Of a DNA stretch of 42,695 bases, positions 13,649-16,226 are shown in pieces. The stretch's first letter is position 1. Each line of letters opens with the position of its first letter. The notes beneath the pieces were generated by a model. It was not told the DNA's origin. It made no database searches and saw nothing but the letters and a program-made list of their open reading frames with translations. The position numbers and the translations under genes are program-made. Source of the DNA: Verrucomicrobiota bacterium (GTDB lineage Bacteria; Verrucomicrobiota; Verrucomicrobiia; Chthoniobacterales; UBA10450); assembly GCA_003217875.1 (NCBI GenBank), contig QHMR01000009.1, positions 1 to 42,695 of the forward strand. The letters run 5' to 3'.

Positions 13649-14824
13649 TTAAAATTGGCGGTAGTTTGCGCGAACCTCGCGATAAATGCAAAACAGTTCG
13701 TCAAACACCCGCTCCCAGCTATAGAGGCTCCGAGCCCTCTTTGCCGCATTTCTGCCGACGGTTAACAATTTTTTTGTCGCGCAACTGACAATCGCACCCG
13801 CGAGCGCATCCGCGCTGTTCTCTCGCGCCCATGATTTCTGCTCATGACAAATAATATTGTCCATGCAGCTGCCACGAATTCCCACCACGGGCGTCCCGCA
13901 CGCCTGACTCTCCAACGTCGCTAGGCCAAAAGTTTCCTGAACACCGGGATGAACGAAGAGATCGGCGGCGCGGTAGTAGCGGGCGAGGTCGCGCGGATCA
14001 CCGCAATAACGAACCCACGAAATGTTTTTGGTTCGCGCTTGGAGTTTCCGAAGCTGAGTTCGCTCGGGACCATCGCCAATGACGAGCAAATGAAACTCAT
14101 TCGGACGGCGTTGCTGCAGAATTTTGAATGCCGCAAACAGAGTTGCCGTGTTCTTCTCTTTCGCCAGACGGCCGACGTAAAGAAGGAGTTTTTTTTGTGA
14201 ATTGAGACCAAGCGAGCGGCGCGTTGTTTCCTTCTCCGAGGCGTCGGGACGAAAGATATCAGGATTAACACCGAGACTCAGGACCCGCACGTTATGCACT
14301 CCCCAATCGCGCAGCACGCTCGCAAGCCGCTCTGATGCTACCAACGTTGCCGCGTGCTCATTGTAAAGTTTACGCACGTAAGCCCGGGAAAGCTTCATCA
14401 CCCGGCGCGTCGCAATTTTTCCGAGGACTTTTGCGCTGTTACGCAGATATGCTTCCGGAAAATGCGAATGATAAAATCCGATCACGGGGGCGCGCAGGGC
14501 ACGGCCAAGCTTCACCGCTTTCCACCCGAGTTGATAAGGATCGGCGGACTCAATCAGGTCCGGCCGTTCCTCTTCCAAAATTTCCTCCACTGCGCGCAAA
14601 TTCAGTAGAGCGCGATATTGGCCCGTACGTGACACAAGAGGCGAACGAATCGAGTAGACACGCGAGCGCCCATTTGCCTTCACGTTCGCCTTCGGGCCGG
14701 GAACAATCAGAACGTGCTCGTCGCGCGGCGCGTGCTTCTCGATATAGTGGATCTTTTCGTGAAGATAACGTTTCACCCCGCCGCTGACCGGAGAGTAGAA
14801 CTGTGTCAGGTCACAGATCTTCAC
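13649..14824 (-). CDS. Glycosyltransferase family 4 (GT-B fold)
   Basis: 391 residues. The N-terminal acceptor domain has FYSPVSGGVKRYLHEK, and the C-terminal donor domain has LLLYVGRLAKEKN, VIGDGPERTQL, FVHPGVQETFGLATLESQACGTPVVG. The E-x7-E pair in ETFGLATLE is the GT4 nucleotide-sugar site. It starts with GTG (MKICDLTQFY), 14 bp inside the 3' end of the four-helix-bundle gene. The GNAT gene follows with no spacer. It probably transfers a hexose to a lipid or surface glycan. Confidence 0.9.
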   Translation of the reverse strand: MKICDLTQFYSPVSGGVKRYLHEKIHYIEKHAPRDEHVLIVPGPKANVKANGRSRVYSIRSPLVSRTGQYRALLNLRAVEEILEEERPDLIESADPYQLGWKAVKLGRALRAPVIGFYHSHFPEAYLRNSAKVLGKIATRRVMKLSRAYVRKLYNEHAATLVASERLASVLRDWGVHNVRVLSLGVNPDIFRPDASEKETTRRSLGLNSQKKLLLYVGRLAKEKNTATLFAAFKILQQRRPNEFHLLVIGDGPERTQLRKLQARTKNISWVRYCGDPRDLARYYRAADLFVHPGVQETFGLATLESQACGTPVVGIRGSCMDNIICHEQKSWARENSADALAGAIVSCATKKLLTVGRNAAKRARSLYSWERVFDELFCIYREVRANYRQF

Positions 14825-15194
14825 AGCATTTTCGATTTTCGATTTGCGATTTTGCCGCGGTTTTCTTCGACGATGCCATGATGGCGGCGATCTCGCCCGC
14901 CTCAGTTAGCAAAGGCCTCACTTTCACTGCACTGAGCAAGCCCGTGTCAATTATAAACTCGAGCCAAAACGCGCTTTCATCTGCTTCGTCTTCGACCACA
15001 CCGAGTTTAGCAATGAAGTCCGGTTTCGAACGCGCTCGGCATGCTGCGCAGTAATTTGCTGCTACAGATGTCCCGCTCCTTATGAGTTGCGAAGCTACCG
15101 CTCGTCCCTGAATCGTTTGGGGCAGAGCGGCAACAAGTTTAAAGATTCGCAATCCAAACTGCTTGGTTCGATCAAGGAGCTCGCGTTCAGTCAT
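14811..15194 (-). CDS. Four-helix-bundle protein (23S rRNA-IVS / S23 type)
   Basis: 127 residues from the ATG at 15192-15194 (MTERELLDRTKQFGLRIFKL). The longer ORF runs back into trxB. Motifs fit the 23S rRNA intervening-sequence protein family: LPQTIQGRAVASQLIRSGTSVAANYCAACRARS, then FIAKLGVVEDEADESAFWLEFI. The structure is four helices; its biochemical role is unknown in any family member. It sits within 30 bp of the trxB stop and runs 14 bp into the glycosyltransferase gene. Both ends of the unit carry blocks of 7-bp repeats in inverted orientation (see the repeat entries), and the C-terminal residues (AKSQIENRK) are encoded by one of these blocks. Confidence 0.88.
   Translation of the reverse strand: MTERELLDRTKQFGLRIFKLVAALPQTIQGRAVASQLIRSGTSVAANYCAACRARSKPDFIAKLGVVEDEADESAFWLEFIIDTGLLSAVKVRPLLTEAGEIAAIMASSKKTAAKSQIENRKCCEDL
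14829..14856 (+). repeat. Left block of four TTTGCGA-type heptads
   Basis: The plus strand reads TTTTCGA, TTTTCGA, TTTGCGA, TTTTGCC in tandem. The block lies inside the last codons of the four-helix-bundle gene and mirrors the right block at 15196-15223. Confidence 0.8.
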
Positions 15195-15195
15195 T

Positions 15196-15223
15196 GAGCA
15201 AATCGCAAATCGCAAATTGCAAA
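15196..15223 (-). repeat. Right block of four TTTGCGA-type heptads
   Basis: The minus strand reads TTTGCAA, TTTGCGA, TTTGCGA, TTTGCTC in tandem. It exactly fills the space between the trxB stop and the two bases before the four-helix-bundle ATG. Orientation is inverted relative to the left block, so both read inward like terminal inverted repeats of a ~395-bp unit. Confidence 0.8.
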
Positions 15224-16147
15224 TCAAGATTCCAGCTCGCTTAGGTACTTCTCCGCATCCATCGCCGCCGCACAACCAGAACCGGCTGCGGTTACCGCCT
15301 GCTTGTAAATCCGATCTGCAACGTCGCCCGCCACGAATACACCGGGATACTTGCTCTCCACGAGATTTTTCGTGACCAAATAGCCATCGGTGTCCATGTC
15401 GAGCTTGCCTCGATACGCTCGCGTGTTCGGGTCATGACCAATTGCCATGAAAACACACGCCACTGCGAGTTCGCGTTCTTCTCCTGTCTTCACATTGCGC
15501 AAACTAACGGCGCGCATCTCGCCCTTTTCATCGGCAATGTATTCTGTCACGACGGTGTTCCAGATGGGCTCGATCTTCTTGTTCGCAAATACACGCTCCT
15601 GCATAATCACCGACGCGCGCATCTTGTCGCGACGATGAATCAGATAGATCTTCGAAGCAAACCGGGCGAGAAACAGCGATTCCTCCGCGGCTGAATCTCC
15701 GCCGCCAACGACGCAGACCGGCACATTTTTGTAAAACGCGCCGTCGCACGTTGCGCACGAAGTCAGCCCATGACCGATCAACTTCTCTTCGTTTTCGAGT
15801 CCGAGATAGCGAGCTGACGCTCCGCTGGCAATAATGAGCGCCTGCGTCTCGAGCCACTCGTCATCGGCTTTGATCCGGACATGCTTATTGTTTCCGTCAA
15901 AATCACTCACTTCTGCGTAGGAGAAACGGGCACCGAATTTTTCGGCCTGCCTGTGCATGTAGAGGATGAGCTCCGGTCCATCGATTCCATCAGGAAAGCC
16001 GGGATAATTTTCCACCAACGTCGTGGTCGAGAGTTGTCCACCCGGCTGCCGACCTTCAAGCACCAAGGGGCTCAGGTTAGCCCGAGCCGCGTAAATCGCC
16101 GCCGTCAATCCGGCGCAGCCGCTTCCGACGATGATCACTTTCTCCAT
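15224..16147 (-). CDS. trxB: Thioredoxin-disulfide reductase
   Basis: 307 residues from the ATG at 16147; the ORF track starts two TTG/CTG-type codons earlier. The FAD site is GSGCAGLTAAIYAARA, followed by QPGGQL. The redox-active pair is CATC in TSCATCDGAF. The NADPH site is GGGDSAAEESLFL, and the C-terminal FAD motif is GVFVAGDVAD followed by QAVTAAGSGCAAA. The enzyme transfers electrons from NADPH through FAD to thioredoxin in the cytoplasm. Its stop is immediately followed by the heptad block of the four-helix-bundle unit. Confidence 0.97.
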   Translation of the reverse strand: MEKVIIVGSGCAGLTAAIYAARANLSPLVLEGRQPGGQLSTTTLVENYPGFPDGIDGPELILYMHRQAEKFGARFSYAEVSDFDGNNKHVRIKADDEWLETQALIIASGASARYLGLENEEKLIGHGLTSCATCDGAFYKNVPVCVVGGGDSAAEESLFLARFASKIYLIHRRDKMRASVIMQERVFANKKIEPIWNTVVTEYIADEKGEMRAVSLRNVKTGEERELAVACVFMAIGHDPNTRAYRGKLDMDTDGYLVTKNLVESKYPGVFVAGDVADRIYKQAVTAAGSGCAAAMDAEKYLSELES

Positions 16148-16226
16148 CAACAAAACTTAGCACACAGCGCAAGTTGCAACGATCGGTCGCACGGCTTAAC
16201 CGCCTAGACTGCGCGGCACCGGATTC

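Follow-up and report, generated by a model that had tools for sequence, protein, structure and literature searches.

Between trxB and a glycosyltransferase gene in a Verrucomicrobiota genome lies a small gene whose two ends are formed by arrays of 7-bp repeats facing each other. What kind of genetic unit does this represent, and is it confined to this locus? The window, by which we mean the whole 42.7-kb stretch of DNA analyzed, is part of a 2.45-Mb draft genome (contig C119) whose nearest named relative is the uncultured Candidatus Udaeobacter, Verrucomicrobiota. Our reading, to which we give a probability of about 0.7, is that the feature belongs to a widespread class of intercistronic cassettes of approximately 450 bp, composed of a tandem-repeat arm, a small ORF and an inverted arm, and that the encoded protein would recognize the arms.

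The element between trxB and the glycosyltransferase gene

The element and its host genes are summarized in Table 1. trxB, the IVP ORF, and the GT4 gene share one direction. The IVP matched PF05635 at 54.6 bits (cut-off 33.8) and TIGR02436 at 78.6 bits (cut-off 24), and PDB 2rld was found by alignment over nearly its full length (E = 1e-25). An IVS-type gene of 127 residues at this position, as given in a preliminary description of this DNA, was thereby confirmed. We know of no function for PF05635/TIGR02436 proteins, which are widespread.

Table 1 Features of the window element and its host genes.
Feature	Position	Strand	Remarks
IVP / four-helix-bundle ORF	15194-14811	-	ATG start, 127 aa plus stop; PF05635, TIGR02436, PDB 2rld
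5' arm (left arm in element orientation)	15198-15225	-	Four GATTTGC-type heptads; overlaps trxB stop codon
3' arm	14828-14853	-	Inverted heptad array; codes for C-terminal tail of IVP, adjoins GT4 start codon
trxB	15224-16153	-	Upstream host gene; TGA stop common to 5' arm
GT4-type glycosyltransferase gene	13649-14824	-	Downstream host gene; GTG start just past 3' arm, within end of IVP ORF

Tandem Repeats Finder detected a period of 7 in both arms, with 4.0 copies of GCAAATC in the 5' arm and 3.7 copies of ATTTTCG in the 3' arm, and these were the highest-scoring period-7 arrays in the window. Among the inverted repeats listed within 1.5 kb, the pair 14828-14852 and 15200-15224, 25 nt long and 88% complementary, ranked first; the inward-reading heptad blocks described earlier were thus recovered at both ends. 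The 5' arm covers the last two bases of the trxB TGA (15224-15226) and spans the interval up to the IVP ATG. The IVP ORF overlaps by 14 nt with the GT4 gene, including its GTG start (14824-14822). These coordinates agree with the earlier observation that the right block fills the trxB-to-ATG gap and the left block encodes the tail of the protein. Judging from the sequence, the cassette is so placed that its translation could be coupled to that of the GT4 gene. The PF05635 gene is the sole ORF between the arms, and no transposase was found in the element.

Inverted arrays around PF05635 genes

PF05635/TIGR02436 matches were present in 80 of the 83 genomes of the bacterial family to which the window belongs, with 0 to 18 IVP copies per genome. 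The window's own genome has seven PF05635 matches, and the complete copies each lie within inverted arrays, with differing units. A scan of named bacterial genomes yielded 80 loci of the window subfamily (type A), 76 of which were testable for arms. An arm score of at least 15 was obtained for 89.5% of these 76 IVP loci, whereas the controls gave 0.6% (1007 random positions) and 3.3% (304 other ORFs from the same loci); a score of at least 18 was obtained for 76% of the IVP loci and for 0 of 1007 random positions. Among 148 distinct (deduplicated) PF05635 elements, comprising type A and other subfamilies from the same bacterial family, 125 had arms, with a period of 7 in 73 elements and of 14 (two heptads) in 33. 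Arms were also found at 23 of 29 IVP genes and 2 of 139 random positions in a phylum-wide sample. The suggestion that heptad blocks flank other copies of this ORF was thus strongly borne out. Type-A elements with arms represented 15 phyla, which were intermixed in the type-A tree, and type A has spread horizontally across phyla. A search of phage records with a type-B query gave no IVPs, and few viral contigs (3) contained one.

The preliminary description had emphasized exactly four heptads in each block, but this is not a rule. The arms of type-A relatives have one to six units, apart from one right arm with nine, and five units are the commonest number, followed by four. The solved structure of a related IVP is a pentameric ring (PMC4990558), and the match of five subunits with the commonest unit number is suggestive only.

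It is extremely improbable that the arrays are chance or slippage microsatellites adjoining a gene. Arrays do gain and lose whole units, and array copy number differs by whole heptads between near-identical Planktothrix plasmids, but slippage alone does not explain why, in 15 phyla, genes of one family lie between an array and its matched inverted partner approximately 385 nt away. Such an origin is refuted by the random and other-ORF controls, which were near zero, and by 0.8 Mb from two related genomes, in which 15 arrays and zero inverted pairs were found.

Correspondence between repeat units and protein subfamilies

The arm unit was GATTNNN in type A, GTTGANA in type B1, GTGACNA in type B2, a CTCGTG hexamer in type C, and GGTCANA in type D. 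The inverted arms are matched inside an element, their motif is common to one protein subfamily only, and their sequence varies from copy to copy. Protein distance correlated with array-motif distance, as calculated from clustered proteins and arm k-mers (Mantel r = 0.67, permutation maximum 0.12, n = 123), and part of this signal may be due to shared descent of whole cassettes rather than to recognition. Joint descent of the gene and its arms in itself means that the arms travel with the gene. Within a subfamily, the two arms of an element matched each other better than they matched the arms of other elements (Wilcoxon p = 1e-12 and 7e-9), indicating that the variable positions are copy-specific and common to both arms.

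We propose that the IVP recognizes its own repeat arrays, either as DNA or as the RNA hairpin formed by the arms, and that this recognition would spread or maintain the cassette. The IVP ORF has no catalytic domain and no enzyme for movement was identified; catalysis would be supplied in trans by some host or element enzyme. For the PF05635/TIGR02436 proteins, the subfamily-specific arms provide a testable hypothesis of a protein with a cognate array.

Position and orientation of the cassettes

The median length of the cassettes was 454 bp. Between co-directional genes, 95 were in the sense and 4 in the antisense orientation. Interquartile ranges of the distance to the nearer arm were -7 to +2 nt for the upstream stop codon (first arm) and -2 to +7 nt for the downstream start codon (second arm). 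Because the stop and start codons hug the ends of the arms, the cassette fills the stop-to-start gap, and its sense orientation there makes it likely that the cassette is read as part of the operon. Where copies at different sites were compared, similarity mostly ended at the arms; in one pair (L189 and L191), homology runs on into a common downstream gene.

Arms at translation stop and start sites would also be expected of an immobile autoregulatory gene, whose product binds the flanking arrays and controls the operon, so that the arrays are selected operators and not the ends of an element. We regard this as unlikely, since IVP genes occur at many unrelated insertion sites and in variable copy number, homology between sites is limited by the arms, and the tree is phylum-mixed.

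Action of the arms as DNA or RNA

The borders of the window element are complementary and could pair as a stem around the ORF, as in the intervening sequences (IVS) of rRNA. The IVS of Coxiella rRNA is 428 nt long, contains an S23p ORF, has complementary borders and is excised by RNase III (PMC4990558). The 23S rRNA IVSs of Coxiella and Leptospira resemble the cassettes in their PF05635 ORF, size of approximately 430-450 bp, complementary borders and sporadic distribution (PMC4990558). Unlike them, the window element lies at the trxB/GT4 gene junction, outside any rRNA gene, and the cassettes generally occupy protein-gene junctions, are present in many copies per genome and have short tandem arrays with a subfamily-specific unit as borders, a feature not mentioned for the IVS ends in the literature consulted. 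The rRNA IVSs with S23p ORFs could belong to the class too, as cassettes that inserted into a stem of ribosomal RNA.

A rival account makes the cassette an intervening element that acts at the RNA level. The arms would pair once the operon is transcribed, and RNase III would cleave the stem; the excised RNA would be bound by the protein, and the element would spread via RNA with a reverse transcriptase in trans, as Avd does for the reverse transcriptases of DGRs. We consider this possible, at clearly less than even odds. The protein family and size agree with those of the Coxiella IVS (PMC4990558), the predicted fold of the window element's RNA pairs the arms (z = -2.4), and folding of arm-only forms is very strong (z = -5.7 and -6.5). 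The IVP belongs to the same fold class as Avd, the DGR accessory protein, and type-B IVPs match NF033474 weakly (E = 3e-5), while the window IVP (type A) gave no match to this Avd model at the threshold used. The strong sense bias also fits, but a need for co-transcription predicts it equally. Mismatches in the arms showed no excess of G-U over A-C (64 vs 51), so that action at the DNA and RNA levels is indistinguishable despite the arm-paired folds.

The trxB|GT4 junction in relatives

Intact IVP genes were present at trxB|GT4 in same-genus genomes (L046, L048, L050, L056, L061, L077, and L076, the G082 copy), and remnants were found in four further cases (L049, L055, L070 and L075). The junction had no ORF but an inverted array in L047 and a solo array in L066. 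The gap was only 34 bp in L063, L067 and L071, and other hairpins occupied it in further relatives. All IVPs at trxB|GT4 formed one clade (support 96/87), which places the element at trxB|GT4 early in the history of the genus and means that the window copy was inherited. Descent of this cassette within the genus has been vertical, with patchy loss, decay or replacement in most relatives.

A recent insertion at trxB|GT4 was rejected by this tree. The preliminary description had proposed a mobile or formerly mobile insert. A discrete cassette with inverted ends lying outside rRNA, together with arm-limited homology, supports the proposal, but the insertion is not a fresh one and no transposase-like gene accompanies it. 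Relatives without the insert do exist, but none of the genomes compared gave a strictly clean empty site, and the anticipated target duplications were not found.

The trxB|GT4 clade splits into two subclades with GATTTGC and GATTGCC as array units, differing in both arms. This joint change of both arms may have happened just once and carries no statistical weight. Together with the vertical inheritance, it is what an autoregulatory gene would show, but the frequent decay and the replacement of one element by another at the same junction argue against that explanation.

A dispersed hairpin (TTGTCATGCTGAGCGGAGTCGAAGCATCTC...GAGATTCCTCGACTTCGCTCGGAATGACAA) fills the trxB|GT4 gap in L053, L054, L057, L059 and L062, and the same hairpin was observed at this junction in L065, L068, L069, L072 and L073.

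Arm-only forms and turnover

Forms consisting of arms alone carry the same motifs as the cassettes with an ORF. At nuoH|nuoI (L225-L254), a hairpin of inverted arrays fills the gap in the great majority of 30 genomes from this bacterial family. The hairpins, whose types were assigned by eye from the sequences, comprise type-C IVP cassettes, ORF-less CTCGTG arms, ORF-less AATGACGA arms and others. One site has an IVP cassette in genome G021 and arms only in G022; direct heptads surround the ORF, and either deletion or duplication would account for the difference. Two different IVP elements were found at one junction in another genus, where the flanks are 91% and 87% identical. The empty site of another element (L328) was not found in 400 kb each of genomes G114 and G102.

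Solo GATTNNN arrays of approximately four units, with no IVP nearby, were found in 17 regions of the window's own genome (L208-L224), and only one further region, that of the window, adjoins a recognized IVP. The reversed GATTNNN pattern, used as a control, was absent from this genome. One of the solo arrays (L224) adjoins a sequence resembling the start of a tRNA.

ORF-less hairpins that are common at the same junctions, and solo arrays dispersed in the own genome, recall REP/RAYT systems (REPINs), which likewise combine a small ORF between inverted repeats with dispersed ORF-less hairpins in intergenic gaps. The arm-only hairpins could then be mobile through a Y1/HUH transposase in trans, with IVP or GxxExxY as an accessory or passenger, and Y1_Tnp genes do exist in the own genome. 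This account is improbable in our view. There is no Y1 ORF between the window arms, the cassettes in general lack a Y1 transposase, and the REP-like repeats of the own genome are of another kind: three of its four Y1_Tnp loci (L164, L166 and L167) are flanked by long inverted REP-like blocks and not by short tandem arrays. A role for the IVP is also implied, since the arm motif follows the IVP subfamily. The arm-only forms are also short, hairpin-forming and non-coding like bacterial MITEs; unlike in MITEs, the arms are tandem arrays of 6- to 10-bp units, and the parent cassettes encode a four-helix-bundle or PD-(D/E)XK protein and not a transposase.

A second ORF family and the proposed class

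Inverted arrays of approximately 8-10-bp units were found around 32 of 35 GxxExxY genes (PF13366, PD-(D/E)XK type; L038-L043, L265-L293) and at 1 of 181 random positions, and some of the arm-only hairpins at nuoH|nuoI match the GxxExxY arms. The architecture is thus not tied to one ORF, and GxxExxY, an unrelated nuclease-like family, seems to share the cassette strategy. DUF559, considered as a further ORF type, was absent from the own genome.

Returning to the cassette reading, we think that the elements are likely mobile and that the class is largely undescribed. Somewhat short of even odds, in our estimate, is the broader proposal that the mobile cassettes form a categorically new class, in which each copy has its own inverted tandem arrays as ends and a small cognate protein reads them. 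This class would include at least two unrelated ORF families, in different cassettes, and arm-only derivatives, and would be targeted to operon stop-start junctions in many phyla. No description of arms around IVP or GxxExxY genes was found in the literature searched, which was covered in part. Comparable arrays there are described as direct repeats: TAACTGA heptamer arrays of Beggiatoaceae and Cyanobacteria occupy stop-to-start gaps, just upstream of start codons, and a mobile repeat-binding protein has been speculated for them (PMC4679880); unlike the window arms, they have been neither tied to an ORF family nor identified as paired inverted arms. The cassettes offer an origin for rRNA intervening sequences and orphan heptamer arrays, and if the new-class proposal is true, many orphan heptamer arrays of bacterial genomes would be explained.

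Two minor observations concern the setting of individual copies. On Planktothrix plasmids (L156-L158), an IVP cassette is located between drmD (DISARM) and an MmeI-type or PglX-type methyltransferase gene. PF05635 domains also occur within very long open frames of 568 codons (L178, G025:C12) and 683 codons (L302, G158:C3), which are possibly fusions or read-through.
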